NCBI GenBank assembly: GCA_905116865.2
Contig: CAJHNH020008547.1
Coordinates: forward strand, 828,743 to 892,742
DNA from: Candidula unifasciata
Taxonomy: Eukaryota; Mollusca; Gastropoda; Stylommatophora; Geomitridae
Direction of reading: 5' to 3'
DNA: 64,000 nucleotides
This document shows, one piece after another, positions 5,590-44,303 of the stretch. The position numbers were made by a program, and so were the translations under genes. Position 1 is the first letter of the stretch, and every line of letters begins with the position of its first letter. The notes beneath the pieces were generated by a model that was not told the DNA's origin, searched no databases, and saw only the letters and a list, made by a program, of their open reading frames with translations.

Positions 5590-5655
5590 AAGTAATGATG
5601 ACCTTGAAGCAGCCATTAGAATAATTGATCACAGGATTTTACATTTAGAGCAAGG
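5590..5655 (+). CDS. UXS1: UXS1 exon, helical stem region
   Basis: Acceptor TTTCCACAG and donor GGTAGGTC bound a 66-bp exon reading [21 protein letters not shown] in a frame that joins the next exon (GG|A = Gly). It matches the stem region before the catalytic domain in position, phase and helical/heptad character rather than by strong sequence identity. It is the most upstream exon I can support; coding exons further 5' are probably outside the window. Confidence 0.8.
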
Positions 5656-14600: not shown

Positions 14601-17600
14601 GACAGAAACATTGTAGGAGTGGCACAATTCTGACGGGGGGCAGTTATAACTAGTGTCAATAAAACGTTGTCCCTGTTTGTGTTCTGGGACCCCATTGTGG
14701 GGGGGGGGGGGGGGCAATTATAACTAGTGTCAATAAAACATTGTGGGGGGGGACCCCCATTGTGGGGGGGGGGGGGGGGGCAATTATAACTAGTGTCAAT
14801 AAAACATTGTCCCTGTTTGTGTTCTGGATCCCATAGTGGGGGGGGGGGGGGGGCAGTTATAACTAATGTCAATAAAACGTTGTCCCTGTTTGTGTTCTGG
14901 GACCCCATGTGGGGGGGGGGGGGGGGGGCAATTATAACTAGTGTCAATAAAACGTTGTCCCTGTTTGTGTTCTGGGACCCCATTGTGGGGGGGGGGGGCA
15001 GTTATAACTAATGTCAATAAACGTTGTCCCTGTTTGTGTTCTGGGACCCCATTGGTGGGGGGGGGGGGGGGGGGGGGCATTATAACTAGTGTCAATAAAA
15101 CATTGTCCCTGTTTGTGTTCCGGAACCCCATTGTGAGGGGGAGGGGGGGGCATTATAACTAGTGTCAATAAAACATTGTCCCCGTTTGGGTTCTGGTGCC
15201 CCGTTGGGGGGTGGGGGGAGATAGACCCACTGCCTCCCTGAAGCATGTCTAAAAAGGCGACTAATTAGAATTTTTTTTCTGATGTCGGAGTACATTTACA
15301 TGAGAGGTGAGGAGCCAACAGTCTGCATACAGGTAAGCTGGATCTGTAAAATGGATGTGCATGCAAAACTGTGATGCAAACGCTAGCAGAAGAAGAAAAG
15401 AATGTTAACATTCTTAATTGCTGTTATTGTTATGAAACCCACATTAGATTAGTGCTGTGACATTTAAGTATGCAGTAGTGATACTGAAGTTTAGCTGAGG
15501 AAAAACAAGACATAAAATGAATGACTGCACAGGGGTGTCATATATTCTATCTGACCCTGTCATATATTCTGTCTGACCCTGTGTCCTTCACTCGCCATTG
15601 TTACGTGATCTCACTATTGCAGACTCATTAGATAGAAATTTTCTTCTTCCCTACTTTCTTTCAGTCCTTTAAATTCACTGTTATTTGTCATGACAATAAG
15701 TGTTGGAGGTCATGGCTGGCCATCTTACGTGACGACTAGAATCACAGATCTGGTCACGCGTACACCGTCTGGCAGTAACTAATGAGACTGGTTAAATTAT
15801 GGTCAAGACAAAAATTCCATCCGTGAAACAAAGAAACTCATTAACACACACTCACACACACACACACACACACACATAATAAAAATTACTCATTCACACA
15901 CACACACACACAAATTATTTATTCACACACAACAAAAATTATTCACACATTCACAACAAAAATTACTCATTCACACACACACAATAAAAATTACTCATTC
16001 ACACACACAACAAAAATTACTCATTTACACACACACACAACAAAAATTACTCATTCACACACGCCCAACAAAAATTATCTGTTTTCTGGCAAAATTGTAA
16101 TGTGGCCCAGTCAGCAGCCATGTGGCTCACCATTTTGATTAGCTAGAGAGATGGGAATGGTTATTTATGCAATGTGGAGCAAATAGTGAACTTTAAATTG
16201 TGTCGTAAAACTTGTAAAATGTGCTATTGAGACAGCTAAATTAATGAAACAGGTTTATAGACAAAAGCGTAACGAAGATGTCTTTATAGAAACTGACTCA
16301 CAAAGAGACCTAATTGCTCGCATCAGAAGGCGAAGTACTTTCATTTTAGCACACCCCAAATAAAGTGAATCCCGGAATTCCCCAAGAAATCCTATTCTAT
16401 GGTGTTATGGCATTACTTCATTCGATGTTAATACAGTGTGCGAAAACATGTGTGAACCATGTGGACAAACTGTGGCAAAATAGTGTGCCACGCGCGGCAG
16501 AAGCGCCTCTGCTGTTCTCTCTGGGAGGCTTGGATGACTTGCTGATGACAGTTGGAATGCTGGCATCTCAAACGGTCCTGGCGTTCAGTCAGTAACACCA
16601 CCATGACATGATTATTGGAACAGACAGCGTCTGGTAGAATGTAAGATGCCATGCTGCTGCAGAAAAGCAACACTGCTCTGCTTGTCATGCACTATTGCTG
16701 GCTGTCAGATCAAGGAAATTCATGGTGAAGTAAGAACCGCCGCTTCCAGGCACTTAGTTACAAAGTGATAATAAACAAAAGAAACGCTGAAAATGATGAG
16801 GAACTGAAAAGAACCAACACATAACACGCCTAGAATATTGGACTTTACCAGGGATTCTGGGATTCCCTTTGTTTGGGGTGAGTTAAAATGAAAGTACAAA
16901 GGAGACAATCTACATTCTTTAGTCTTGTCATGAGAAGAAGAAAACTGGAGAACATCGTGATTGTGGGAAAGTTGGAACTGAAAAGAGGCAGAGAAGGACC
17001 TAGAGAAAAGATGCTGGACAGTTTGACATCAGGGCATGGAAGATCATTTGTGTCAGAATTGATTGAAAGTACATGAGACAGAAGGTTGTGGATAGACATG
17101 ACTACCACATGGCATGGACTGTAAGAAAAAGAAGAAGAAGAAGAAGAACATATAGTAGATCTGACTGTTGATGGAAGTGTGTCTGTATGCATCTGACCAG
17201 AACTTTGTCATTTATAAAAATTGATTTTTCTGTTTTCAGTTGATCAGATCTATCACCTTGCATCACCAGCATCTCCACCTAACTACATGTATAATCCAAT
17301 CAAAACACTGAAAACAAACACTCTTGGGACTATCAACATGCTGGGTGAGTTTCTGCATAGTCAGTTTTCTAGGTGAGCTTTCTGATGCAGTCATCATGCT
17401 AGGTGAGTTTTTCAGATGTACTAGTTATGCTTGGTGAGCTTTCAGACACAATCAGGGGAGTTGAGCCACATTTCTCTCAGATTTACGGTATCTATCATGG
17501 AATCGAGGCCGAAGGATTGCGATATCCATAGTACCAAGCCAAAAGGTTAACAACTCATGGTTTCTGGATATTTAAAAAAAAAAAAAAAGAAAAAGAAACA

Positions 17601-20600
17601 CATGAATATTTTTTTTAGCTACCAAACCATCCGTCCTAGCCTCCGTTCATTCACCCATTGAACAGGCTCTCATCCAGCCCTTATCCTTTCAACCAGCTAG
17701 CCATCTATTTTGCCACCCGTACATCCTTTAACCCAGCCACCCATACATCCGTTAAGTCATCCACCTAGAAACCCATCAATGCAATGAGTGACCCATTCAT
17801 CCAGCGAGCCACCCAACCAGCCACCCATCCAGTCACAAACCACACATCCAGTCACACAACCATCCATTCACAGTCCTTCAGTTCAGTCACACATCCACTA
17901 TCTATTCATCCATTCACCCATCCATCAGTCCACCCATCCAGTCACAATCCACACATCCAACCAAACTTCCATCCAGTCAGACTCCTTCAATTCAGTCACA
18001 CACCACCACCATCCATATTTCCTTCCATCCATCCATCCACTCTTCCACTCACCCATCCATTGATTTGTGTGTCCCAGACTGGAGGCAGATGTGAGACCAG
18101 AGTAGAGGGGCTTCTTTTTGATCTTGAAACAGTCTTAGCCACTTTACAGATCTCAAAAAGAGATATAAAACTTAACGAAAAGTATATTAGCAAGCTTCAC
18201 AATATAACAGATAAAAATAAAACTAGAACATTGCGGCTATGGAGCCTTCATCAGCACACACAAATCAAACAAAACTACACAAATACACAAAATCACTTAG
18301 CTGGTACCTCGAAGCAGCCAGGTCGATGAAATCTCAGCAGAATGCCTACAGGCATCTCAAAAACTTGTTCAAGGCTGTCTTTAGCCACTTTCAGACCTAG
18401 TAGCCTGAACTAAGTTAATACATCCTAGTGTGAAAATTTGACCTGATGCTCTACCAATATTTAAGTGGTATTTATAGTTTTTCCTTCAAGCATCTGATTC
18501 AGCTTTTGCTGTGTCTTTTGTTTACATTGGGTTAATATTCAAATGTAATCATCCTCCTCACGTAGCAGGTCTTTTGCAGAATGTCACTCTCATCACAGTC
18601 TGCCTGAAAGAAACTCGGTCTCTCGCCTGCTCTCCCGCCTCATGTACTTTTATACTCAAGGAGTCAATTATATCCTGTGCCCATCTTATATTCCCGTGTA
18701 CCGTTTGGAAACTTGGAAATCTTGTGGATTGTTTGTTTCTTTTTTTCAGGTCTGGCCAAGAGGGTCAGAGCACGGTTGTTACTGGCATCTACATCTGAAG
18801 TTTATGGAGGTAAGCTTAACTACTGTGGTTAGGGTAATAAGGTGATAAGAGACAAGGAGAAAGAAATTCAAAAGTCTTCATACAAACATTTAATTGTGAA
18901 ATAAGTTTTTTTCTCTCAATAAGTTCTCTACTGTTGTGTTCAGTGGAACATATGGAAATACACAGAGAGATGGAACCAGTGTTTTAATTTTATGCTTGCC
19001 TTTTAAACAGTTAATTTAGAGGAAAAAAAAAAAAAAAAAAACTAGTGAAGACAGCTTATGTTTGACTACTCGGATGTTGCCAATTTAGAAACTGTCCTTG
19101 GAGTTAGTTAATTGTATATCCTTCAGAGCACGGGTTCTGAACACATGGGTTATGACCCCAAATAAAGTCACAGATAGTTCTCCATGGGGTTGCTTGACAG
19201 TGACTGGCTGTGAACAATTTTTTCAACAAGAAAACAACAAATCATATTAATTATATTGTACTGATAAATTCCTTTTCTGTGTCTTCTAATTTATTCTGTA
19301 AATTCATTTTCTGTGTCTTTTCATTTACCCTGTTCAGTGAGTAAAGAACCCTTTTCCACACTTTTAAGCTAAATGGGCATATAGGGCTAGACCTACATTG
19401 TATAGATCAATCGGCACTTAGTGAGTGATGTGGTGAACATCATACCAGCCACCTTTGCTTCTGAGGACTTCACATGGTACCCCATTTAAGGCTGGATCGA
19501 CCTGGCTTGGGGCCAAGGTCATTTATGGAAATAGTCCAGCTCTGCCAGGACCTGAACACATGACCTGAGGATCTGCAGGCAAGCATCTAGCCACTAAACT
19601 GCGGCAGCTCTATTTACCCTGTTAAAAAGCCTATTTTTTTTATTGTTGGAGGTCACAGGTCACATTGTAAAAAATGGAGTCGACTCAAAAAAGGTTGAGA
19701 GCCACTGCTTTAGAGGATGATGCAAACCAGCCCCACATTTGTTGGCTGTTTGTGGTTTTGCTAGGAAATTTGTACACTCAGAAGTTTGCCATTGCTTTCT
19801 GGTTGGTTCTCAATACCATTGTCAAAATCGGTCCAAAGCAGTTAGCTGCCATATTGACTGCAGTTGGAATCAAATGGATGTCTCTTAATCGCAAACCATG
19901 TTTTCTCAAGCCACAGATGCCAGTCTCCTTGGAGTGCAGTAATGGAAATGCAGCAGATATGAAGTAAAATGATTTAAATGTTGAAATTCTTTCACACTCA
20001 GCTGATTCTCTTGTTATGCTTGGTGAACTTCTATATACAGTTGTTGAAAACAGAGTGGCAGAACATATTCCTAGACTGCCCTTTATACAACTGAGTGGAG
20101 ATCCTATATGAGACTAGAAGAGAGATCCTAATTCTTTTATAGAACAGCATTTGTTTGACTCTGGGCATGTGTTAGAGATTATGCCTTCAGAGTTATTTAT
20201 AATAGGCATTTACTAAAACTAGCTGAGGCCGTATCAATAAAACTGAACTTTCCTCTTCTTTGTAAACAATAAGGTCACCTGATAAATTTGAAGTTTCCGT
20301 GGTAATCACCGGCTGATAAAAAAATTTATGATGGAGAGTTGTACAGCCTAACTTGACAGTGACAATGTGATTTGGTATTTAGCAAAAAGGATTGACTTTT
20401 GTCCGCCACTTTATGTTGATTTAACTCTGCAGTATTTCAACTGTTGGGCTCTGCTCCGAATGATAGGTCTGAACGATCACGTCTAAAAATATACTCTAAA
20501 AGGGTCTCAGCCATACGTAAATTGTGGACTCCTTTCCGGCAAGTACATTGCGGCAAAAGTAATATTACTTTCGGGAAATAATTTTGCAAAACTCAAAAAT

Positions 20601-23600
20601 TATCATCATGGCAGGCAGACATTAGCTCTGACACTGGGTCTTAGGTTTAACCTCTCCATGAGTCCTAGGTTTAACCTCTACCCTGGGTCCTAGGTGTAAC
20701 TTCTCCCCTGGGTCCTAGGTTTAACTTCTCCCCTTAGACCTAGGGTTAGGGTTAGGGTTAGGGCAACGAGTATTACAACACCGCCACCAGAATCTGTAGC
20801 AACAGTCCAACCGCGACACTAATGATTGACGGGTTATGCGTGCAAATAACACAGGCACAAGGTTATGAAAGCGTACCTTGTTGCATGATTTGCCGCCCGC
20901 TCCTGATGATATTTGCCGGACAGACATCCTAATTTTAATTGTACACACCATTAAGGCCCTGTTGGGATATATTTTAGAAGCGATCATTCAGATTTATCAT
21001 TCAGAGGAGAGCCAACTGATGAGATGCAGGAAAATGTGCCAGGCAATAAATTGTACAATATATTGTTTGCGTCTGTATTATTTAAATTATTCTCTTGTCA
21101 TTTCTATGAATCAGATCCTGAGTTGCATCCTCAGAATGAAGATTACTGGGGTCATGTGAACCCTATAGGACCCCGGGCATGTTATGATGAAGGAAAACGA
21201 GTGGCTGAGACGATGTGCTATGCCTATGAGAAACAGGTGAGGCTGACAGCGTCAGTCATCATCAAGTGCCTTGCTGGATGGTTTGAGTGATGCTGCTTCT
21301 GCACCTCTTTTTGTGCCCATCTGCTTATATCATTTCTTTTGCTGAGAGAACACAATGCACACACACATCATGATTGTAGCTGACTCAGAAAGCATGCTGA
21401 GGAAGACCAGGACAGCCATGCTTCGTGCAGAGTGGCATGCCTCGCTGCGGAGGACACGGGTGAAAAGTATTGTCTGGATTTTTTCACCGGCCCATGCCGG
21501 TGTGTTGGGAAATAAACAGGCGGACAGACTGGGTGGCTCTGCACAACTTGGTGGAATACACATGCATGATAAAGCAGACGTGGTTAGTGCCTTGTGGGAG
21601 AGCGTGTACAGTTAGGAGGAGAAGATGGATCACCACTGTCTGGTGAGATTGATGCAGGGGGGAGTGACGAGAGGTTCTGGCATATGCCCGAGACTCGGAG
21701 GAAAGGCAAGACGGACGTTAAATCAGAATGCTGCTGGCACCATTAGCATCGGAACTCTTCATTGGCTGCTGAAGATGGGAATGGAGCGCTTATGGGAATG
21801 CCCTGAGTGCTGAGATGTCGGTTCTTGAATCAAATCAAATCAATTATGCTGAGACTTTTGATACCATAACAAAATGTTGTCCACAATCTTCTCTTCATTA
21901 TCTTTGTTTATTTATCCATAAATCTTTCCAGTTGTCACATGTTTCAGTTTCAAATGTTCTCTTCTCACAGTGTAATGGTCTCTTTATGATTTTTGCCGCG
22001 GCACCCCTGGCATACGCACCTAGTTTGAGAACCTCTGCTGTAATGCCTTGGTCGAATCAGCAGGCAAAGACCTTGTCAGCTGCTGTACCACGCAAACCGG
22101 GTCGCAGTTTCCCTGGCTGTGACAGTCTTAGGCAACAGCAACTATTGTGTTAATGAGAGAGTTATTTCAGTCCATCGCAGTGTATGCAGAAATGGGTGTA
22201 AGGTAACCAGTATTTGTATTTGGCCCTACCGCAAGTATTCGGCTGAATACCGAATAGTTATTAGGTCCACTATTCGGCCCTGAAGCGAATATTCGGTACA
22301 GCCCTAATTTTTACTCTTACTTTTGCTTGGTTCTCCAGCTCATGTTTTTGTTGTTTGTTTTCTGTTTTTGCTGATGGTCTGTATTGAATGTGTTTGGGAT
22401 CATTCACTGTATGCCGTTGCCTCTTTCAGAGCTTGAGCCTTTCCTTGGGTGTTAATTTTTAGGGATCCCTTGAGACTATTTCAATAGCATCCTTAGAGCC
22501 GTGGTAGTGTAATGGCTAGCACATTTGTTTACCAGCCCAATGGTCATATTTTAGAAGCCAGGCCGACCCACTGACCCATCCTCAAATAGGTGCTAGAAGG
22601 TATTAAAAGTAAAGCCGCCTTTTAGACATTGATCGACATGATCTATTAAATGCCAAAAGCTGTATAAATATTAGGTGCAACACCATACGTTCATTGCTCC
22701 TATAAGCGTAAAAACAAATCCTTTCAGCTTATGTCAACGTTTAGTCTACTACATGCAAAACAAATATCAAGAAATGTTTTAGCCAGTGCCGACTCAGTCT
22801 AACAATATTGGTTACTAGGAAGTAAAGATAGCCCACCGCTACCAGGTCATTAACATTTTAACCCTCTTGTCTAAGAGGAGTCTACTTTATCAGGGACCCA
22901 CAAAATCTGCATGTCATTGACATGCAAGCTGACACCAAGGCTAGGATGCTGTCGTAAAATTAGGATTGTTTCTTCAAAGTCAGAGTGCATCTGCCTGAGA
23001 GGTGAAGAACCAACAGTCTGCATGCAAATAAGCTAGATCTGTAAAATGGATGTGCACGCACAAGACCAAAGTTTAGAGGTTGATAAACAACCAGAACTTA
23101 CTGCCTGAGTTTACAGCTCGAGAAGAAAAAGAGGAAGAAATAATGATGATAAAAACAATATATTGCCCAGCCCATTTTGCTGTATCTTATCAAGTATTTT
23201 AAGAAACAAACTATAATACAGAAAATATAAATAGTACATTTTCTGACTGCAGGAAAAAGTTGAGGTCAGAGTGGCACGCATCTTTAATACATTTGGACCT
23301 CGAATGCACATGAACGATGGAAGGGTGGTCAGCAATTTCATTCTTCAGGCTTTGCAAAATGAATCCATTACAGTAAGTGCTGCCCTTTAAAGAAGTAACA
23401 TCATTTTCCTCGGCGACTGTTTTGTTAAACAGTCAGCGAGGTGCCATCTCCACAGTGAAGGTTGGCTGTGACATATCTCTAACACACATCTGTCTCTTGT
23501 CCTGCTTGCAGATTCTATGAGGCTGCTGTTTATCTGTGTCCTAATATTATCCTTTCATTTGTATCACTGCCTGCCTATTGACTACCTGTCTTTAACTGTT

Positions 23601-26600: not shown

Positions 26601-29600
26601 GGTAGGAAAGTTCATGAGGGGAGAAAACTGGCAAGAGACCAAGTTTCTTTCATGCAGGTTGTGATGAGAATGCTATTCTGTGAAGGACCTGCTACATGAT
26701 GATGATGATGTCATATATTTTTATCTTTGTGCAACAGGTATATGGTGATGGTGACCAGACAAGATCGTTCCAGTACGTGAGTGACCTCGTTGATGGACTG
26801 ATGGCTTTAATGAATTCAAACTACTCGCAGCCTGTCAATATTGGCAACCCCGAGGAGCACACGATCATGGAGTTTGCAAAAATTATTAATACACTTGTAG
26901 GTGAGTTCCACAGTACCTGCTCTCTCTCTCTCTCTCACACACACGCACATACACAGATAGAGATAACTTTTTTGCTGTTGCGGTTTTTCTATTCAAATTT
27001 ACGCTACTTTGCCATTGCTTCGGAAGTCAGCTCTTAATACCACCGTTGAAATCAAGCTAGTCTGCTGCAAAGTTGCCTGCATCTGGGATCCAATGCAGCA
27101 TGTAGAGAAAAAAAATGTATTATAAGATATGAAAAAATAGTTATGAATTGTGGAAAAGGGGGGGGGGGGGAATATGAATTAAATGTGGGGGACAAAAGTA
27201 TGGATTAGATGTAGAAAAAAAAAAGTTATGAATTAGATCTGGATGGCTAAGTTCCACTGCAGAACAACTTGTACTTGCCAGTAACACTAGTGCAGAACAA
27301 CTTGTACTTGCCAGTAACACTAGTGCAGAACAACTTGTACTTGCCAGTAACACTAGTGCAGAACAACTTGTACTTGCCAGTAACACTAGTGCAGAACAAC
27401 TTGTACTTGCCAGTAACACTAGTGCAGAACAACTTGTACTTGCCAGTAACAGTACTACAAAACAACTTGTACTTGCCAGTAACACGACTGCAGAACAACT
27501 TGTACTTGCCAGTAACACTAGTGCAGAACAACTTGTACTTACCAGTAACACTAGTGCAGAACAACTTGTACTTGCCAGTAACACTAGTGCAGAACAACTT
27601 GTACTTGCCAGTAACACTAGTGCAGAACAACTTGTACTTGCCAGTAACACTAGTGCAGAACAACTTGTACTTGCCAGTAACACGACTGCAGAACAACTTG
27701 TACTTGCCAGTAACACTAGTGCAGAACAACTTGTACTTGCCAGTAACACTAGTGCAGAACAACTTGTACTTGCCAGTAACACTAGTGCAGAACAACTTGT
27801 ACTTGCCAGTAACACGACTGCAGAACAACTTGTACTTGCCAGTAACACGACTGCAGAACAACTTGTACTTGCCAGTAACACTAGTGCAGAACAACTTGTA
27901 CTTGCCAGTAACACTAGTGCAGAACAACTTGTACTTGCCAGTAACACGACTGCAGAACAACTTGTACTTGCCAGTAACACTAGTGCAGAACAACTTGTAC
28001 TTACCAGTAACACTAGTGCAGAACAACTTGTACTTGCCAGTAACACTAGTGCAGAACAACTTGTACTTGCCAGTAACACGACTGCAGAACAACTTGTACT
28101 TGCCAGTAACACTAGTGCAGAACAACTTGTACTTGCCAGTAACACTAGTGCAGAACAACTTGTACTTGCCAGTAACACTAGTGCAGAACAACTTGTACTT
28201 GCCAGTAACACTAGTGCAGAACAACTTGTACTTGCCAGTAACACTAGTGCAGAACAACTTGTACTTGCCAGTAACATGACTGCAGAACAACTTGTACTTG
28301 CCAGTAACACTAGTGCAGAACAACTTGTACTTGCCAGTAACACTAGTGCAGAACAACTTGTACTTAACCAATAACACTGCTGCAGAACAACTTGAACTAA
28401 GTGTTATGTACTGTATAATTAGAGAAGGAGAGATGATGTGACCATAAACACAATGTACTTGGGTGACTTGCTTGAAATCGAAAAAAAAACAGAAAACTTC
28501 GGACGGCTTCAACCTGCCTCTGGGGCTTGGTTTTATTTGCGTCCTGGTGTCTTTGCGGTTTTAGCTTCTTTGTTTGTGGGTGACTCCGAATCTTATTGCT
28601 TTTATTTCCAGGAGGCCAAGGCCAGATTGTAAAAAAGATGGCGATGGAAGATGACCCACAGAGGAGAAAGCCAGATATTTCCCGTGCTATGAAGTATCTG
28701 AATTGGCAGCCAAAGGTAAGATGTCGTCAATCAGTCAGGTGCCATCTTCACAATGAATGCTGCTGGCTGCGGTGGATCTTCACACTGTGTGTTTCTTGTC
28801 TTGGCTGTACACTGCCTGTCTCTTGTCTTGGCTGTACACTGTCTGTCTCTTGTCTTGGCTGTACACTGTCTGTCTCTTGTCTTGGCTGTACACTGTCTGT
28901 CTCTTGTCTTGGCTGTACACTGTCTGAGACTGCAGTGATGATTAACAATGGACAAGAGCAACCAGCTGGGAACAACACAGTCAATGGGGAGATTTCAGAA
29001 TAAGCTCCAAGTTTCTCTTATCTCGGGCACATAATAACAGATAATGGCAGAAGTGAAATAGAAATAAAAAACGAGAGATACAGCATGCAGGATGATGCGC
29101 TACCTTCTCGGTCTTTCCAACCATGAAAAACAGAAAACAGATTTCCCGAGCGAGTGCTTACCTCACAGTCAAGGCGGACACACAACATCCATTATATAGT
29201 CAAATCAAGAAGACAATTGAATGTTGTATAATTGTTTTTATTTGTCCGATTGAATGCTGTGTACTCTTTTTTTGGCTGTCTTATTGAATGCTGTATACTT
29301 GTTTTTGAATGTTGAATTAAGACTCAAAATCACAGCCTTCAGAACACCTCTTTAAGCGATTAGTCCCTATCTTAAGCAGCCTTTGAATAGTTCAAGTTTC
29401 AATGGCACCAGTAATTGATTGTATATTTGTCTCATCTTTCCCTTCAGTGTTGATCGTAACTGGTAAATCCTCGAAGCTCCATTCTCAGACCACAATGATC
29501 TAATTATTCCTCCCCACTGTTCAATCACTCCCAGAGGGCCCTCACAACATTCATACATCAATTCACCACCAAGTGGTGCAGTGCCGGTTAGTCTACTTGT

Positions 29601-32600: not shown

Positions 32601-33294
32601 AGACCAAAGTCCAGGTGTGGACGAATAACCAAAATTTTCCACTGAAGTGTACAGCTGGTGAATGCTTAAAAAAATAGACGAAGAAAAGGATTGCACAGGA
32701 TAAAAGGATGTGGAGGAATGTAATATGAACCGTCTGTGACATATAAATAGCACAGTAGAATGCTGATGAGGATAAATTGTTAATTATACTGTTCTTAACA
32801 ATTTATTTCAATTTTTCAGATTCCATTGATGGTAGGCTTCAATAAAACCATTGAATATTTCCATGTTTCAAATTTCATTGATGGTAGGCCTCAATAAAAC
32901 CATTGAATATTTCCATGTTTCAGATTCCATTGATGGTAGGCCTCAATAAAACCATTGAATATTTCCATGTTTCAGATTCCATTGATGGTAGGCCTCTATA
33001 AAACTATTGAATATTTCCATGTTTCAGATTCCATTGATGTTAGGCCTCAATAAAACTATTGAATATTTCCATGTTTCAGATTCCATTGATGGTAGGCCTC
33101 AATAAAACTATTGAATATTTCCATGTTTCAGATTCCGTTGATGGTAGGCCTCAATAAAACCATTGAATATATCCATGTTTCAGATTCCATTGATGGTAGG
33201 CCTCAATAAAACTATTGAATATTTCCGCAATGAGCTGCGACGATCCCAGCACAGTGAGAGAAACTTCCACATGCCAGAAAAATTTCAAGTCTGA
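5590..33294 (+). CDS. UXS1: UDP-glucuronic acid decarboxylase 1 (UDP-xylose synthase), spliced, 5' end outside window
   Basis: Ten exons (5590-5655, 12936-12993, 14329-14509, 17240-17344, 18750-18809, 21115-21236, 23253-23372, 26738-26900, 28612-28715, 33184-33294) join in one frame for 362 residues and a stop. All junctions are GT/AG and all phases agree. The enzyme converts UDP-glucuronate to UDP-xylose with bound NAD in the Golgi/ER lumen, supplying xylose for proteoglycan linkers. Fragment residues 44-50 give the GGAGFVG dinucleotide-binding loop; [12 protein letters not shown] follows; 150-156 are STSEVYG; Tyr180 and Lys184 form the YxxxK pair of extended short-chain dehydrogenases; [10 protein letters not shown] and QYVSDLV are also family hallmarks. 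The first ~20 residues are a helical stem. The N-terminal cytoplasmic/membrane segment, about 60 residues in vertebrate UXS1, must lie upstream. The terminal exon is preceded by seven partial copies of itself (see 32820-33183). Confidence 0.97.
6340..6850 (+). mobile_element. LINE endonuclease-domain fragment, frameshifted
   Basis: Plus-strand words such as [48 protein letters not shown] and [14 protein letters not shown] fit the apurinic-type endonuclease of RTE-like LINEs (LGDFNAR region changed to LGNITAR). Stops and frameshifts show it is dead. The 3' edge runs into the 8-bp array. It may be the 5' part of the element at 10180-12410. Confidence 0.7.
6853..7047 (+). repeat. 8-bp microsatellite TAGTCTGG with 7-bp interruptions
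   Basis: About 24 units of TAGTCTGG, regularly interrupted by TAGTTGG (e.g. 6910, 6955, 7010). It lies directly at the 3' edge of a LINE endonuclease fragment. The open minus-strand frame LPDYQTTR is an artefact. Confidence 0.97.
8490..8747 (+). repeat. 12-bp array CTGGAACTTCCC
   Basis: About 21 units of CTGGAACTTCCC with C/T/A variants. It is open in frame on both strands because the unit is four codons; no coding flank is visible. Confidence 0.97.
8935..9050 (+). repeat. ~27-bp imperfect array, 4 units
   Basis: Repeated motif AACAACGGTTTCAAGAAT followed by an A/T-rich spacer, four diverged copies. Confidence 0.8.
10180..12410 (+). pseudogene. LINE reverse transcriptase with C-terminal zinc finger, degenerate
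   Basis: In order: [57 protein letters not shown] (normally NYRGISL after it); [44 protein letters not shown] (RT motif GxxQGcxLaP); then [44 protein letters not shown] and a final [18 protein letters not shown] finger. At least four frame changes and internal stops; no YADD could be placed. Lies in UXS1 intron 5656-12935. Confidence 0.9.
10275..10633 (+). repeat. perfect 179-bp tandem duplication inside the LINE
   Basis: 10275-10453 and 10455-10633 appear identical (GGACTCTATGAGCAGAGTCA ... CTCTACTTTACAAGCAC), separated by one base. The identity contrasts with the decay of the surrounding LINE, so the duplication is recent or an assembly artefact. Confidence 0.9.
12515..12690 (-). repeat. 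family A repeat
   Basis: Minus strand GCACAACTC-like 3' half: TTCCAAAACCTGAGTTTTGC in plus is the reverse of the family's AACACTCAAGTTCTGGAA. Confidence 0.65.
12936..12993 (+). CDS. UXS1: UXS1 exon, linker into catalytic domain
   Basis: CTCAG acceptor and GTAAGTG donor. It encodes [19 protein letters not shown], the YPxVKFL...KDRKRIL linker that directly precedes ITGGAGFVG in animal UXS1. Ends in phase 0. Confidence 0.95.
13270..14280 (+). repeat. 18-bp CA-rich array upstream of a UXS1 exon
   Basis: Unit ATTACTTCCTTCACACAC and variants; perfect 18-mers to ~13600, then 18-20 bp with extra CA pairs. It fills most of UXS1 intron 12994-14328 and ends ~50 bp before the acceptor at 14328. The frames SFTHIT on plus and VCEG on minus are artefacts. 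Confidence 0.97.
14329..14509 (+). CDS. UXS1: UXS1 exon, NAD-binding Rossmann start
   Basis: CACAG acceptor, GTGAGA donor, 181 bp, ends in phase 1. It encodes [12 protein letters not shown] through [11 protein letters not shown] and contains the glycine-rich loop, the acidic end of beta-2 ([12 protein letters not shown]) and [12 protein letters not shown], all near-invariant in animal UXS1. The long CA-rich array at 13270-14280 stops about 50 bp before this exon. Confidence 0.97.
14630..15225 (+). repeat. ~73-bp poly-G minisatellite, about 8 units
   Basis: Each unit holds CAGTTATAACTAGTGTCAAT, AAAACATTGTCCCTGTTTG, TGTTCTGGGACCCCATTGTG and a run of 8-20 G. The last unit flows into an interspersed repeat (15190-15395) whose own 5' end is GGGTTCTGGTGCCCCGTTGG, so the unit is derived from that repeat. 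It lies in the intron just after a UXS1 exon. G-runs may be imperfectly assembled. Confidence 0.95.
15190..15395 (+). repeat. family A repeat, source of the adjacent poly-G array
   Basis: GGGTTCTGGTGCCCCGTTGG, then GATAGACCCACTGCCTCCCT and GGAGCCAACAGTCTGCATAC. Its first ~30 bp are the same as the end of each unit in 14630-15225. Confidence 0.75.
15838..16076 (+). repeat. CA-rich array with AAAAATTACTCATTC units
   Basis: About eight units of ACACACAACAAAAATTACTC type with variable CA length, in UXS1 intron 14510-17239. Confidence 0.9.
16900..17110 (+). mobile_element. LINE C-terminal fragment
   Basis: Reads [20 protein letters not shown], then [18 protein letters not shown] and a tail with AAGAAGAAG. 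FFGHVMRR-x-LE..v..G is the usual C-terminus of RTE-like LINEs; the GRPR..W motif is changed. Confidence 0.7.
17240..17344 (+). CDS. UXS1: UXS1 exon, [10 protein letters not shown] motif
   Basis: Strong pyrimidine tract with TTTTCAG acceptor; GTGAGT donor; 105 bp. It encodes [20 protein letters not shown] and the following [14 protein letters not shown] segment, a UXS1 signature that lines the cofactor and substrate site. Confidence 0.97.
17455..17560 (+). mobile_element. SINE family 3 fragment
   Basis: GAGCCACATTTCTCTCAGAT then TTACGGTATCTATCATGGAA matches 44440-44480. Confidence 0.6.
17620..18060 (+). repeat. degenerate CCAT/CCAGTCA tetranucleotide-rich tract
   Basis: CCATCCATCC, CCACCCATCC and CCAGTCACA motifs repeat irregularly over ~440 bp in UXS1 intron 17345-18749. 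Confidence 0.85.
18550..18715 (-). mobile_element. LINE 3'-end fragment
   Basis: Minus strand words ([20 protein letters not shown], preceded by a HLGDTL-like segment) match the 3' ends at 26095 and 56130 (plus) and 40090 (minus). Abuts the UXS1 exon at 18750 without overlapping it. Confidence 0.6.
18750..18809 (+). CDS. UXS1: UXS1 exon, catalytic STSEVYG
   Basis: TTTTTTCAG acceptor, GTAAGC donor, 60 bp. It encodes [20 protein letters not shown], including the Thr/Ser-Glu catalytic segment of the family. Confidence 0.97.
19366..19608 (-). mobile_element. tRNA-derived SINE, family 1
   Basis: Minus strand GCCGCAGTTTAGTGGCTAGA (A-box region) and GGTCATGTGTTCAGGTCC (B-box-like), then the family body ending near ATATGCCCATTTAGC. 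In UXS1 intron 18810-21114. Confidence 0.7.
19730..19905 (-). mobile_element. SINE family 2 fragment
   Basis: GTGGTTTTGCTAGGAAATTT, TTTGCCATTGCTTTCTGG and CTCAATACCATTGTCAAAAT match the antisense family-2 body. Confidence 0.6.
20040..20260 (+). mobile_element. probable LINE 3'-end fragment (Jockey-like)
   Basis: RVAEHIF...CPLY...[11 protein letters not shown] is recognisable as the degraded C-terminal cysteine/histidine region of a LINE that ends after an RNase H domain. Confidence 0.45.
20447..21013. mobile_element. non-autonomous inverted-repeat DNA transposon, copy 1
   Basis: Ends GGCTCTGC...GGAGAGCC, with flanking 8-bp duplications AACTGTTG (20439-20446) and AACTGATG (21014-21021), 7/8 matching. 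Sub-terminal inverted matches include GGGATATATTTTAGA at the right and TCTAAAAATATACTC at the left. Internal TTAGGGTTAGGGTTAGGG lies at about 20744-20763. No transposase frame. Same family as 58568-58981 and 60651-61188. Confidence 0.8.
21115..21236 (+). CDS. UXS1: UXS1 exon, YxxxK catalytic pair
   Basis: GAATCAG acceptor, GTGAGG donor, 122 bp. It encodes [17 protein letters not shown], then [16 protein letters not shown] and the end CYAYEKQ. The Tyr and Lys of YDEGK are the catalytic residues. The exon starts about 95 bp after an inverted-repeat transposon (20447-21013). Confidence 0.97.
21355..21835 (+). mobile_element. LINE RNase H domain and C-terminal zinc-knuckle fragment
   Basis: Plus strand [20 protein letters not shown] is the RNase H motif (W-PgHaGv-GNE-AD). 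It continues as a [18 protein letters not shown] segment, then [25 protein letters not shown] and the tail AATCAAATCAAATCAA. Related 3' ends at 35026 (minus) and 46190 (plus). Confidence 0.8.
21970..22330. other. UXS1 intron with two unclassified repeat fragments
   Basis: CCGCGGCACCCCTGGCATAC at 21998 and the repeated word CGAATATTCGGT/ACTATTCGG at 22236-22300 look like fragments of dispersed repeats; no coding capacity. Confidence 0.35.
22495..22645 (+). mobile_element. tRNA-derived SINE, family 1, truncated
   Basis: AGAGCCGTGGTAGTGTAATG then GGCTAGCACATTTG resembles a tRNA head; body words GCCGACCCAC and AAAGTAAAGCCGCC match the family. Confidence 0.55.
22925..23140 (+). repeat. family A repeat
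   Basis: CAGAGTGCATCTGCCTGAGA, GGTGAAGAACCAACAGTCTG and CAACCAGAACTTACTGCCTG, with an AGAAGAAAAAGAGGAAG tail. Ends ~110 bp before a UXS1 exon. Confidence 0.75.
23253..23372 (+). CDS. UXS1: UXS1 exon, [10 protein letters not shown] segment
   Basis: CTGCAG acceptor, GTAAGT donor, 120 bp, phase 0 at both ends. It encodes [18 protein letters not shown], then [17 protein letters not shown] and NESIT, the conserved substrate-contact region. Confidence 0.97.
23435..23700 (+). repeat. family B interspersed repeat
   Basis: AGTCAGCGAGGTGCCATCTC, GTCTCTTGTCCTGCTTGCAG, GCTGTTTGTCCACTTCTTGA and CAGTTTGTATCACTGCCTGC. Relatives at 28728 and 57775 (plus) and at 45745 and 51040 (minus). Confidence 0.6.
24825..25560 (+). 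repeat. 46-bp minisatellite, 16 units
   Basis: Unit contains GAGTTACAGGGGATATGATT, CCGTTCACTTGTGTGTGGAA and ACTGCT. Later units are nearly identical and differ at one site (TTCCG/TTGCG). In UXS1 intron 23373-26737. Confidence 0.97.
26095..26695 (+). mobile_element. LINE fragment, post-RT thumb to 3' end
   Basis: [48 protein letters not shown] and the end [30 protein letters not shown] are collinear with RTE-like LINE C-termini (YLGSxISxxG...RL.K.W...YGcEsW). Frameshifts present. Ends in GATGATGATG directly before the acceptor of the UXS1 exon at 26738. Confidence 0.85.
26738..26900 (+). CDS. UXS1: UXS1 exon, [12 protein letters not shown] segment
   Basis: GCAACAG acceptor, GTGAGT donor, 163 bp ending in phase 1. 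It encodes [20 protein letters not shown] and, further on, [17 protein letters not shown], typical of UXS1 C-terminal substrate-binding sequence. Confidence 0.97.
26965..27100 (-). mobile_element. SINE family 2 fragment
   Basis: GTTGCGGTTTTTCTATTCAA, TTTGCCATTGCTTCGG and TAATACCACCGTTGAAATCA match the antisense family-2 body. Confidence 0.55.
27255..28395 (+). repeat. 33-bp minisatellite, ~34 units, in UXS1 intron
   Basis: Unit CTAGTGCAGAACAACTTGTA plus CTTGCCAGTAACA, in intron 26901-28611. Main variant replaces ACTAGTGCAG with ACGACTGCAG. Three frames stay open (336-421 codons) because 33 is divisible by three; there is no start context or coding flank. Confidence 0.97.
28612..28715 (+). 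CDS. UXS1: UXS1 exon, [11 protein letters not shown] segment
   Basis: TTTCCAG acceptor, GTAAGA donor, 104 bp. It encodes [19 protein letters not shown], then [15 protein letters not shown]; DDPxxRKPDI...LxWxP is the family's C-terminal hallmark. Ends in phase 0. Confidence 0.97.
28728..28935 (+). repeat. family B repeat with internal 27-bp expansion
   Basis: AATCAGTCAGGTGCCATCTT and CACAATGAATGCTGCTGGCT match family B; its TGTCTCTTGTCTTG part is then tandemly repeated. Confidence 0.65.
28790..28927 (+). repeat. 27-bp array, 5 units, just after a UXS1 exon
   Basis: Unit CTTGTCTTGGCTGTACACTG plus TCTGTCT. It begins ~75 bp after the donor at 28716, inside a copy of the interspersed repeat also present at 23435 and 57775, and so looks like a local amplification of it. 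Confidence 0.93.
29360..30930 (-). pseudogene. degenerate LINE with reverse transcriptase and RNase H (Jockey-like)
   Basis: On the minus strand the RT motif [20 protein letters not shown] lies at ~30900-30800, and the RNase H start [18 protein letters not shown] with [19 protein letters not shown] and [17 protein letters not shown] at ~29960-29760. The W-PgHaG part and 3' end follow to ~29400. Multiple stops. In the last UXS1 intron, antisense to the gene. Confidence 0.85.
30935..31665 (+). repeat. degenerate 32-40-bp array
   Basis: Motif AATACTGTATGATTGTTTTT recurs with GTTGTGTCATTG-like spacers about 20 times, strongly diverged except for near-identical units at 31490-31640. Lies in the last UXS1 intron. 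Confidence 0.85.
31670..32290. other. last UXS1 intron, nothing recognised
   Basis: No splice-bounded frame, tandem structure or known element is visible between the degenerate array and the LINE fragment at 32290. Confidence 0.5.
32290..32395 (+). mobile_element. LINE C-terminal fragment
   Basis: ATGATGCCCAAGAGAAACCT ... TTCCATCCAGATCAGAAGGA aligns with the 3' part of the element at 4225-4480. It is followed by the interspersed AAG-tailed repeat, as there. Confidence 0.55.
32397..32695 (+). repeat. family A repeat
   Basis: GTCAGAGTGCATATGTCTGA, AAGAAACCAACAGTCTGCAT and GTTCTGGATCAAGACCAAAG; immediately precedes the UXS1 terminal-exon repeats by ~125 bp. Confidence 0.75.
32820..33183 (+). 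repeat. seven tandem copies (52 bp) of the UXS1 terminal-exon start plus its acceptor
   Basis: Units begin at 32820, 32872, 32924, 32976, 33028, 33080 and 33132, with the functional exon as the eighth at 33184; spacing is exactly 52. Each unit holds the first 46 exonic bases (ATTCCATTGATGGTAGG...) and then ATGTTTCAG, which recreates the acceptor of the next unit. The acceptor of copy 2 reads CAA and is destroyed; the others keep AG. 52 is not a multiple of three, so entering at any earlier copy changes frame in the next unit and meets TAA after 25 codons. The first copy has the longest pyrimidine-rich tract (ATTTATTTCAATTTTTCAG) and is probably the ancestral intron end. Confidence 0.95.
33184..33294 (+). 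CDS. UXS1: UXS1 terminal exon with stop
   Basis: Acceptor TGTTTCAG, then 37 codons starting [20 protein letters not shown] and ending KFQV-stop. GLNKxIxYFRxEL matches the end of animal UXS1. This is the eighth and only complete member of a run of 52-bp repeats built from this exon's start. Only this copy continues past the 46th exonic base into the full C-terminus. Confidence 0.95.
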   Translation: MPLMVGLNKTIEYFRNELRRSQHSERNFHMPEKFQV

Positions 33295-38600: not shown

Positions 38601-41600
38601 CCTTTTGTCTATGGCTCCCTTTTGTCTATGGATCCCTTTTGTCTATGGCTCCCTTTTGTCTATGGCTCCCTTTTGTCTATGGATCCCTTTTGTCTATGGA
38701 TCCCTTTTGTCTATGGCTCCCTTTGTCAACTGTTATTTTATAAAACTAATCTAAACAGTGTTTTCCATTTGTTTACATGTTCATATCTCTACCACAGTTC
38801 AACCATCTTCATTTTACAGTTGGAAGAATAATTTTCCACATGTTAGGGTATACTATCGACCGATCAATTTGTCCCCTCTGGATTGCTCTTAAAGGTTTAC
38901 CACTACCATACTTATACTACAAGGCTCAGCAGAGGAAAAGAGGCAGACCAAGAAAAACCTGGATATAGAACATGATTTGACTGGACAGGCCTTAGGCATG
39001 CAACCATGAGGTCCATCATGTTTGACCATCAAAAGTGGAGAAAGCTGATCAGACAGTCAACAGCAACTGGTGACCTAATGACACGCACTGTTACAGGATG
39101 ATGAGAAAACCATACTAAGATTTAAAAATGTCAGTCTGTACGGCAGACCAACAAGGCAGATGCCAGATACCTCGTTCAACCTCTAGAGATGTTACAATTA
39201 GAGCTCCTCTAATGGCCAGGTGTCACCTTCAGTACTACTGCGGATAAAGTACACTAGTTATTGAGGCATATACAGTGCTCGCTCCATATTTCTGAAGATG
39301 GGTGATGCATTCGACAGCTACATTTCCTGGTGATTTTCAGAAGAAAAGATTTAGTGTACCAGATTCGTTAAAACAAAATCTCGCCTCATTAGAAAATTAA
39401 ACAAGTGATCAGAGTGTCAACATGCTGGCCACTGCGCCCTCCCTGATCCCTGTTAATGTAATAGAAAATCTGTAACCCCATCACCCTGAGAATGCTAAAT
39501 CTGGTCACTTCCCACTGTGATACAGCCCCATAAATGCAGATAAATCGCCAGTTCTAAAAAAGTAATTAAATGCCATTTGTTTTATATGTGTGCCTGAAAT
39601 GTTTAGGAGGCTTGCCTGTGAATATATAAACTAAATAACAGCATTTAGAGGGATTTCCTTGTGAATAAAAAGCCTTTTTAAAGCCAGGGTGACTAAAAAT
39701 GTCTCCGTAAACCTCAGTGATAAAGGTCACAAGGTCACTGCATGAGTCACCTGATGCACATTTGTTTTAAGAGCTGGGGAATGCATTCCATTTAATGCTT
39801 CACTTTTTGTTTACTGTTTGCTCCATTATATACATTTAAAAAGCAAAATTGATAAATACATTTTGAAGCCATTTATTAGTTATCTGTTTAAAATAGTTTA
39901 TTTTGTTAGGAAATTGGCATAGGTTTATAACCCATTAGTTATAGCATTCACGGGGTGAAAAGGTTCAACTTGAACAAATAAACACATCTGTTATAAAAAT
40001 GTGTACATGTTATGTTGTGAACTGAGTACTTGTTAGTGTGTACTGTTGACCCTAGGCAACTTAAACTCATTCTGTATGTATTCAGTTCATCATTATGTAG
40101 CAGGTCTTTTGCAGAATATCACTCTCATCACAGCCTACCTGAAAGAAACTCTGTCTCTAGCCAGATCCCTACCTTGGTGTACTTCTCTCATTTCCAAGGT
40201 GTCACTTAGATCCTATGCCCACCTCAGTTCTGTTCAGCCCCTACCCCTCCTTGCTGGTACCATGCCTTCTGATACTATTCTTTCCAATCAGCTCTGGTAC
40301 TTGATAAGGCCAAAATTTTTCAGCTTTTGAGACAAGATGCTGTTGACTAGCCAATCTTCCTTGATGTTCAGATCTTTGAGGATGTCAATATTTCTTTTCT
40401 TGTTGGTCCATGGTATTGTAAGCAGTTATTACAATATAAAGGCTACGGCTGGTTCTACAATGACACACAATGCAGGTAACTTTTAGGAGACAACTCAAAG
40501 AGGCAGAACAAGTAGAACCTTCGAGTATAAAAGAGTTTTGCCATATTTGTTTCCACAGTAAGTGCTGTGCATGGCAGTGATAAGCTTGCTTCTGTCCTGT
40601 ACTGGACCAGCCATAGCAAACGCAGTGTCTGCAAGATAATCTACACGCTCACTGCCTCAAACACCTGCCTTTAAACAACAAGCTTACCCATCTTTAAGGT
40701 ATGGCAGCTTCACTTTACTCCGAGCATCCTTTTCAGCATCTGTTAATGACAAATTGAAGGGCAGCTTGCTGGTCAGATCATCCTGAAATTTGAAAAGAAA
40801 AACATCAGCCAAAACACAGATGTTAAAAAAACATTCATTTACAGTGAAAGAAAAAGAAGAGAGTCATTTCAATAAAACCCACTCATAATGGAAATGAGAT
40901 TACTTTGTAACCGTTGGGTGCCCTTAAATAACTGTTATACAGTCGGTCAGCTTTCTGAAGGGCGTTTATTTAAGTCACTGGGTGCTAAGCAATCCCAGAG
41001 CCAAAAAAAAAAGACAGTGAATGAAATGGTTAATTTTATTTTATACAGTTTGCAACATCTAGCAATTAACCATTTAAAATTGCTGACCTATTTCCTGAGC
41101 CCAGACAAGAGGAACACTTTGAACAGCATTTGAAAACATGTACATTTCACTACAGGGAATTGGGACAAAGGGCGAAAGCTGATGCACCGCTTGATTGATA
41201 ACAACCACAACATTCCTTACAACACGAAAGAAAGAAATATTAAAGGGTGACATACAAGAGAGAAACATAAAAACACACTAAAATCTAATCTTCATTTCTA
41301 CTTTGTTCCTACTACCTTCTCAAAGTATAACAATCAATATTTATTATTTCATGAATTAAATTCAGCTAACATGTCTCCAACAGAAAAAAACAATATTCCA
41401 TGTTAGACTCTTTTAAATAGGATATTTTAGTGGAAGTTTACATTAGAAAATTTAAAAAGTTGTTCATCATCATCATAAACCACTTCTGCCGTTAGGGGTC
41501 GTGGGGAGGAATAATTTGCGATCCAGTGCACGTTAGCTGCCACTGGCTATTGTCATGCCGTACAGGCGTAGTGTGTCTAATGTTGTCATGCCGTAAAGGC

Positions 41601-44303
41601 GTAGTGTGTCTAATGTTGTCATGCCGTAAAGGTGTAGTGTGTCTAATGTTGTCATGCCGTAAAGGTGTAGTGTGTCTAATGTTGTCATGCCGTAAAGGTG
41701 TAGTGTGTCTAATGTTGTCATGCCGTAAAGGCGTAGTGTGTCTAATGTTGTCATGCCGTAAAGGTGTAGTGTGTCTAATGTTGTCATGCCGTAAAGGTGT
41801 AGTGTGTCTAATGTTGTCATGCCGTAAAGGTGTAGTGTGTCTAATGTTGTCATGCCATAAAGGCGTAGTGTGTCTAATGTTGTCATGCCGTAAAGGCGTA
41901 GTGTGTCTAATGTTGTCATGCCGTAAAGGTGTAGTGTGTCTAATGTTGTCATGCCGTAAAGGTGTAGTGTGTCTAATGTTGTCATGCCGTAAAGGTGTAG
42001 TGTGTCTAATGTTGTCATGCCGTAAAGGTGTAGTGTGTCTAATGTTGTCATGCCGTAAAGGTGTAGTGTGTCTAATGTTGTCATGCCATAAAGGTGTAGT
42101 GTGTCTAATGTTGTCATGCCGTAAAGGTGTAGTGTGTCTAATGTTGTCATGCCGTAAAGGTGTAGTGTGTCTAATGTTGTCATGCCGTAAAGGTGTAGTG
42201 TGTCTAATGTTGTCATGCTGTAAAGGTGTAGTGTGTCTAATGTTGTCATGCCGTAAAGATGTAGTGTGTCTAATGTTGTCATGCCGTAAAGGCGTAGTGT
42301 GTCTAATGTTGTCATGCCGTAAAGGTGTAGTGTGTCTAATGTTGTCATGCCGTAAAGGTGTAGTGTGTCTAATGTTGTCATGCCGTAAAGGTGTAGTGTG
42401 TCTAATGTTGTCATGCCGTAAAGGTGTAGTGTGTCTAATGTTGTCATGCCGTAAAGGTGTAGTGTGTCTAATGTTGTCATGCCGTAAAGGTGTAGTGTGT
42501 CTAATGTTGTCATGCCGTAAAGGTGTAGTGTGTCTAATGTTGTCATGCCGTAAAGGTGTAGTGTGTCTAATGTTGTCATGCCGTAAAGGTGTAGTGTGTC
42601 TAATGTTGTCATGCCGTAAAGGCGTAGTGTGTCTAATGTTGTCATGCCGTAAAGGTGTTGTGTGTCTAATGTTGTCATGCCGTAAAGGTGTAGTGTGTCT
42701 AATGTTGTCATGCCGTAAAGGTGTAGTGTGTCTAATGTTGTCATGCCGTAAAGGTGTAGTGTGTCTAATGTTGTCATGCCGTAAAGGCGTAGTGTGTCTA
42801 ATGTTGTCATGCCGTAAAGGTGTAGTGTGTCTAATGTTGTCATGCCGTAAAGGTGTAGTGTGTCTAATGTTGTCATGCCGTAAAGGTGTAGTGTGTCTAA
42901 TGTTGTCATGCCGTAAAGGTGTAGTGTGTCTAATGTTGTCATGCCGTAAAGGTGTAGTGTGTCTAATGTTGTCATGCCGTAAAGGTGTAGTGTGTCTAAT
43001 GTTGTCATGCTGTAAAGGTGTAGTGTGTCTAATGTTGTCATGCCGTAAAGGTGTAGTGTGTCTAATGTTGTCAATCCATATATACCGTGGCCGTCCTCTT
43101 GCTCTTGCAGCTGATCTTCTAAGATGTAGTGCTTGTGTTGGTATCTGATCTTCCTGCATTCTAATGAGATGGCCAAATCACTTGATCTGCTGTTTCTCGA
43201 TGAATCTATTACAAGGTGTCATTCCCACAATTTGCCTGATAGTTTTTATTATTCACTTGATCCTATAATTTTAGTGTGCCGGATTCGAACCTATTTTACT
43301 TGGTCTCACTGCAGCAGCTGGTCACACACACAAACTCTGTAGCTAAAATACCCCCCCTCTCCCGAATATAAAAAAACACTGGCAGGTAAAAAAAAAAAAT
43401 AATATGAAATCAAACCTATAACCTTCACAACATAACTCTTACAGATTAACCATTTTGTTATGGAAAAACCTCCAGAGGAAAAAACAAGCAAACTATGTCA
43501 AACAAACCTGAGGTTTGTGCTGAGATGAACCGTCCTGAGATGTAGCACTGCCAAAGTTGTAGATGTGAAAGCTATCATCTGTGTAAAAGTATTCCCTCTG
43601 AAAGTAGAAAAACAAGAAGCATAGTTACAAGACAAGCTAAAAGTTTCATTTTGGTTCAGGATGATTTAAATTAAACACAGATAACTTCATAAGGACTTAG
43701 TCTCCTATAGATCATAGAAGGAGTACTGAGTACAGTGCACAAACCTTTTAGCACAGGGGAGGATCCAAATTACATGCACACCAAACATTTTCTCACTAAG
43801 CATGCATTTTTTCCCTGGCAGGTTTTCATATTATTACACTTAGCCTGGACAGTCTATTTTTACTTTCAGCCCCTGAGGGATTTTAAATATTTATAAAGAT
43901 CCTCCAAGTTCCTCACCCTTGTTCATGAAGGCTATACATTAGGACTCCCTCCCCCTAGAGCTCCAGGAGTGGGAAGTAAACCATCCTGTTCTTATATATA
44001 TATATATATATATAAAACAGCTCTCACATGGACACCAGAGGAAAGAGAAAGAAGGGGCGCCCAAAAACAACATGGAGACAAACGATGGAGAGTGACCTGA
44101 ATGCGGCATCTCTGACATGGAAAACTGCATTGAAGATTGCACAGGACAGGAAAGTCCTCTCTGAAGCCTCATGTGCCACTAGGCATAAAGAGAATTGATG
44201 ATTTTATATATAAATATGCCTAGTGGCACATGAGGCTTCAGAGAGCACTTTCCATGTTTTTCCATGTCAGAGATGCCATATTCAGATCACTCTACATCAT
44301 TCG

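Follow-up and report, generated by a model that had tools for sequence, protein, structure and literature searches.

Mirages, as described in amphioxus, are minisatellite tandem repeats that span intron-exon boundaries (PMC3087553, PMC3902484). They are reported for the globin genes BflGb6 and BflGb9 (PMC3087553) and for PGBD5 (PMC3902484), and further mirages, in Adh3 and troponin C, are cited in PMC3087553 or PMC3902484. In the BflGb6 mirage, the unit comprises the 3′ end of an intron and the 5′ part of an exon and is present six and three times in two haplotypes; many copies keep their splice signals, reverse-transcription PCR (RT-PCR) is said to suggest regular splicing, and mirages are described as a possibly general phenomenon in cephalochordates (PMC3087553). 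Here we analyzed a 64,000-nt stretch of the genome of the land snail Candidula unifasciata (the window), which contains a gene identified from its sequence as UXS1, encoding UDP-glucuronate decarboxylase, and, over the 3′ splice site of its last intron, an array of eight 52-bp units. No mirage in a mollusc was found among the titles and abstract openings listed in searches of open-licence papers.

The snail array shares the layout of the BflGb6 mirage, namely the 3′ end of an intron together with the 5′ part of an exon. It is a head-to-tail array, with the authentic boundary inside the unit and splice signals in most copies. In snail and amphioxus alike, the units span the boundary, AG or GT is kept in most copies, both 3′ and 5′ boundaries can be affected, and a regular protein is annotated. 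Unlike the amphioxus mirages, the snail case has a mollusc host, combines both boundary types in one gene, and places its acceptor array at a terminal exon, where stop codons should escape decay that depends on the exon junction complex (EJC). An earlier reading of the window from its letters (the sequence-only reading) implied that such an arrangement lacked precedent; the amphioxus mirages provide one, and the snail array is of this known, seldom described kind, apparently in a new phylum.

Overall structure of the acceptor array

The features of the array and of the exon that is spliced to it are as follows.

28612..28715, + strand: penultimate coding exon, whose donor AAAG/gtaaga pairs with the array (parse; the slash marks the splice junction)
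32804..33225, + strand: 52-bp minisatellite of eight units that takes in the last intron's 3′ splice site and the first part of the terminal coding exon, a 3′ mirage (sequence, TRF, direct parse)
32804..32809, + strand: left TATTTC motif, in the intron tail (sequence)
32820..32897, + strand: copy 1, acceptor and exon start, with the top acceptor score and the change L7F; if used, its truncated frame ends at 32897 (parse, acceptor matrix)
32872..32949, + strand: copy 2, acceptor lost (CAA), change P2S (parse)
32924..33209, + strand: copies 3-7, AG intact, truncated frames, exon starts at 32924, 32976, 33028, 33080 and 33132 (parse, acceptor matrix)
33184..33294, + strand: copy 8, the terminal coding exon, 36 residues and a stop, yielding the annotated protein P0001 (parse, protein match)
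33220..33225, + strand: right TATTTC motif, in the exon (sequence)

Tandem Repeats Finder (TRF) delimits the array at 32804-33226, with a period of 52, 8.1 copies, 95% matches and a score of 755, and the direct parse places the eight exon starts at exact 52-bp steps (32820, 32872, ..., 33184). Sequence, TRF and parse thus agree with the sequence-only reading that there are eight units exactly 52 bp apart, only the eighth of which reaches the full C-terminus. As a repeat, the eightfold array clearly exceeds chance. Each unit consists of 16 nt of intron end and 36 nt of exon. The intron-end consensus is TATTTCCATGTTTCAG, replaced by TATTTCAATTTTTCAG in copy 1, and the exon-start consensus is ATTCCATTGATGGTAGGCCTCAATAAAACCATTGAA, continuing into the TATTTCC of the next unit. 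The exon portion common to the units measures 43 nt (33184-33226 in copy 8), not the 46 bases given in the earlier reading; beyond it, an upstream copy runs into ATGTTTCAG and copy 8 into GCAATGAG. The acceptor reads CAG in seven of the eight copies and CAA in copy 2, in line with the earlier count of AG in six of the seven upstream copies.

No pair among the eight units is identical, the minimum pairwise difference being one. Copy 1 is the most divergent unit, with a mean of 4.4 differences to the others, and copy 8, at the opposite edge, shows only 2.7. In a DNA search of the 1.34-Gb genome, the array is found at a single place, and a second UXS1 gene yields a match of 104 bp at 78%.

These unit differences bear on the explanation that the array is an assembly artefact, the real locus having one or few copies. 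The genome is reported to have been assembled from long reads with wtdbg2; contig C7137 measures 1,220,611 bp here versus 1,233,151 bp in the protein database for the contig of P0001, and the genome analyzed (1.34 Gb, 7176 contigs) departs from the published one (1.29 Gb, 8586 scaffolds), both discrepancies being unexplained. However, all eight units differ from one another, which speaks against plain assembly stutter, and the 422-bp array lies far below the reported PacBio read N50 of 9.9 kb, in an assembly that is stated to have been polished with Racon and Pilon. We regard an artefact as barely probable.

Each unit also carries a motif resembling a poly(A) signal. The hexamer AATAAA occurs in seven of the eight units, inside Asn-Lys codons, and copy 4 has TATAAA; each unit so combines an acceptor, a reading frame and a motif of this kind. 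The second UXS1 gene lacks AATAAA and has AACAAA at the corresponding place.

32841, 32893, 32945, 33049, 33101, 33153 and 33205, + strand: AATAAA hexamers (sequence)

Acceptor choice at the array

The protein of the gene assembled from the window is 100% identical to the annotated C. unifasciata protein P0001 at each of the 340 residues queried, the tail among them, bearing out the earlier assignment of the gene to UXS1 together with its exon and acceptor anatomy. The C-terminus of P0001 is the copy-8 tail. Were the penultimate exon, which ends at 28715, spliced to one of copies 1-7 instead, the product would have 329 residues (both counts start at the KKTYPEV exon). In these frames, 11 foreign residues follow the shared 14, a stop is reached before 33210, and the last 22 residues of the normal protein are lost, as the sequence-only reading had worked out. 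The foreign tail varies, running to RPL in copy 3, DVRPQ in copy 4 and SVDGRPQ in copy 6, and copy 1 has a variant of its own.

We consider it likely that the array is a mirage-type minisatellite in which the upstream copies have turned into intron and copy 8 is the working acceptor, the extra copies probably being ignored by the cell. Conservation of the tail is consistent with this assignment. The homologue set comprised 121 proteins, namely the best 120 of 7995 (the snail's own two included) and one from a search with the truncated tail, and 120 of them could be aligned. At least 15 residues follow the shared 14 in 114 of the 120, EL or EI stands at tail residues 3-4 in 119, and HS[EQ]RN is present in the tail of 95; by contrast, a tail beginning HVS occurs in none of the 120, and neither does DGRP. 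Relative to the consensus, the eight copies show seven distinct codon changes, five of them nonsynonymous, a share close to the 79% expected when all possible single changes are counted. Furthermore, L7F (copy 1) and F14I (copy 7) are seen in none of the 120 alignable homologues. With a near-neutral nonsynonymous share, one dead acceptor and two changes unseen in homologues, the upstream copies look unconstrained, and the data agree with an exon that is intact at copy 8 and with drift of the copies upstream.

Splice-site scores and signals weigh against the use of copy 8. Acceptors were scored with a matrix built on 19 authentic acceptors taken from both snail UXS1 genes, from which a paralog acceptor near 29955, whose exact place is unclear, was left out; a first splice-site matrix had used generic frequencies. 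Copy 1 scores 10.8, the top value, as the earlier reading had proposed from its pyrimidine tract, copies 3-7 each reach 9.75, and copy 8 no more than 6.66. Copies 1 and 3-7 thus lie at or above 15 of the 19 real acceptors, and copy 8 at or above 7 of the 19. Copy 2, in which AG is absent, obtains 4.15 through pseudocounts. In addition, a branch-like TTAAC at 32795 lies just 5′ of copy 1, so that a scanning model predicts copy 1, and judged on these signals alone, copy 1 should win. Against this, every unit contains a branch-like TTGAT, and the final one, at 33138, precedes copy 8 by 46 nt. The annotation, moreover, is partly homology-driven, so copy 8 would have been chosen even without RNA support; in the genome paper, introns from the species' own RNA-seq are described as combined with homology. 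The P0001 annotation is accordingly supportive of copy 8 and not proof of it. Finally, tandem repeats that lie at exon-intron boundaries have been reported to cause alternative splicing within human segmental duplications (PMC2812944).

The same observations feed the explanation that splicing to the upstream acceptors occurs at an appreciable frequency and produces a tail-truncated UXS1 (329 versus 340 residues) beside the full form in a ratio dependent on copy number. The six intact upstream acceptors have scores in the range of real ones, and no intact copy scores lower than copy 8. The parse confirms the earlier claim that the truncated frames have their stops within the last exon; EJC-dependent decay is thus expected to spare the RNA, and the second, full-length UXS1 gene could compensate for any loss. 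The family of shortened UXS1 forms envisaged in the sequence-only reading nevertheless gains no support from the proteins: P0001 has the copy-8 tail, and the truncated tail is absent from all five candidates scored in a set of 5.8 billion proteins. The normal tail is conserved among relatives, two upstream copies hold residues unseen in the 120 homologues, and amphioxus mirages are reported to be regularly spliced. Taken together, we rate appreciable use of the upstream acceptors as unlikely, about one chance among several.

The base composition changes where the array ends, GC being 32% in the array and 48% in the unique exon tail. Signals on the exon side, close to copy 8, might therefore help to explain why it is used. 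RNA structure hiding the upstream acceptors was considered and rejected: the array folds no better than its shuffles (z = +1.62, with 97 of 100 shuffles folding as well or better).

A different use of the upstream copies would be as nascent mini-exons, in which splicing to an upstream AG is followed, 12 nt later, by the donor ATG/GTAGGC and a jump to an acceptor further on, so that 12 nt (IPLM) are inserted in frame; such use could coexist with the other explanations. ATG/GTAGGC stands 12 nt past the acceptor in seven of the eight units (copy 5 is the exception) and scores 6.13, above 3 of the 20 correctly placed UXS1 donors, and the scheme resembles the intron gain by boundary duplication described for potato RdRp (PMC4974935). 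The donor is weak all the same, introns between adjacent units would measure only 40 nt, and the IPLM insertion is absent from P0001. We hold mini-exons to be very improbable.

If copy 8 is the working acceptor, the UXS1 array constitutes a natural test of spliceosome choice among near-identical acceptors, because six decoys outscore the site that makes the conserved protein.

Proposed origin of the array

The bounds of the array suggest how it may have arisen. A 52-bp segment, comprising the last 16 nt of the intron and 36 nt of the exon, would have been tandemly duplicated, probably by slippage or microhomology between the TATTTC of the intron tail and the TATTTC of the exon. These two motifs now lie 416 bases apart, exactly 8 × 52, so that in a single-copy ancestor they would have been 52 bp apart. 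Such a spacing is a textbook situation for duplication by slippage or microhomology. The array would then have grown to eight units by unequal exchange or slippage, and this growth would have displaced seven exon-start copies into the intron. Copy 8, the sole copy joined to the intact exon, most likely stays the main acceptor, in which case the protein is unchanged, and the upstream copies would since have drifted as intron sequence with leaky use at most. Copy-number variation of the array is plausible.

This course of events can be set beside other duplications at exon boundaries. In the Rogers model of intron gain by tandem duplication, described for potato RdRp, the duplicated segment likewise crosses the 3′ end of an intron and the 5′ part of an exon, copying the pyrimidine tract and AG (PMC4974935). 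Unlike potato RdRp, the snail gene has an existing intron that simply lengthens at its 3′ end, and P0001 shows no new intron. Internal tandem repeats likewise alter exon-intron structure in human segmental duplications, for which alternative splicing patterns are reported (PMC2812944), whereas the snail array is known here from the genome sequence and the annotated protein. Two further candidates for a precedent were set aside: the minisatellites of earthworm metallothionein are placed within intron 1 in the source text (PMC12783039), and the portion of PMC7931591 on gastropod hemocyanin introns yielded no such arrays.

The variable number tandem repeat in intron 2 of IL1RN is an array in an intron of a conserved gene with a possible acceptor inside, and it is not known to include the authentic exon boundary.

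A second array at a donor site of UXS1

A second array covers a 5′ splice site of the same gene.

17240-17344, + strand: UXS1 coding exon with the donor array at its 3′ edge
17333..17443, + strand: donor array (5′ mirage) of four diverged units, 28-31 bp apart, each with CTNG/GTGAGY, the first being the real donor of exon 17240-17344 and the other three lying at 17372, 17402 and 17433

GT is kept in all four units, as is GGTGAG. The sequence CTNGGTGAGYTT occurs four times on the + strand of the window, always inside this array; it is absent from the gene-sense strand in 70 kb surrounding the second UXS1 gene and from a genome sample of 400,000 strand-bases. The authentic donor at 17344 scores 11.2 and the extra ones 8.4, 10.1 and 12.0, the third outscoring the authentic donor; the latter sits in its own matrix, which slightly favours its 11.2. 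The donor matrix was built on 21 donors, with one misplaced row (p60536) still included, and ranks were counted over the other 20. Use of the extra donors would shift the frame or meet a stop. As at the acceptor array, the known protein comes from the copy that is attached to the intact exon. The donor array is judged to be older than the 52-bp acceptor array.

Minisatellite density and chance overlap

To place both arrays against their background, arrays with a period of at least 10 and at least three copies were counted. They occupy 20.5% of bases in a sample of 20 stretches, each 10 kb long and spaced evenly along the two UXS1-bearing contigs; the window holds 22 such arrays, covering 22% of its bases. 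When the 22 arrays are placed at random, edges of UXS1 exons (18 edges of nine exons) are covered 2.2 times on average, and at least once with a probability of 0.92; two are observed. In a genome this repeat-rich, overlap of an array with an exon edge is therefore expected and is no more frequent than by chance, and similar cases elsewhere in the genome are likely.

A structure in a mollusc that matches the mirages, and that affects a single gene at an acceptor as well as at a donor, suggests that mirages can arise wherever minisatellites are dense. One could go further and suppose that splice-site minisatellites recur in minisatellite-rich land-snail genomes, independently of amphioxus, and that the UXS1 array acts as a length-variable dial on which each unit adds one more decoy acceptor, individuals differing in their share of decay-escaping truncated UXS1. 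We think this extended proposal improbable.

The second UXS1 gene and other features of the window

The second UXS1 gene (C6538:585000-654999) encodes P0005; it has a single acceptor, and its tail resembles the copy-8 tail, in keeping with copy 8 as the working site. It keeps GAATATTTCC in the exon, with an intron end that lacks the TATTTC motif. No TRF array (score at least 30) lies over an edge of its 12 mapped exon pieces, some edges of which are approximate, and arrays lie within 60 nt of some of these pieces. A third or retroposed UXS1 copy was sought and discarded, the best candidates amounting to these two loci only and one weak, distant match on C2188.

Exon 1 of the window gene lies about 5.6 kb upstream of the window. 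The remaining coding pieces are as follows.

about 729-775, + strand: further UXS1 coding piece
5590-5655, + strand: UXS1 coding exon
12936-12993, + strand: UXS1 coding exon
14329-14509, + strand: UXS1 coding exon
18750-18809, + strand: UXS1 coding exon
21115-21236, + strand: UXS1 coding exon
23253-23372, + strand: UXS1 coding exon
26738-26900, + strand: UXS1 coding exon

The UXS1 introns are rich in arrays, some of them 70 bp or less from exons (13277-14275; 28782-28926). Two 33-bp minisatellites, at 27141-28560 and 41492-43218, can be read without a stop over several hundred codons in two or more frames, because their period is divisible by three; no sign of a gene was noticed there, although no test for one was made. 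A tandem duplication of 180 bp with 100% identity lies at 10275-10633. Two open frames inside a UXS1 intron (11038-12208), at 11038-11493 and 11843-12208, resemble fragments of the reverse-transcriptase region of a retrotransposon.

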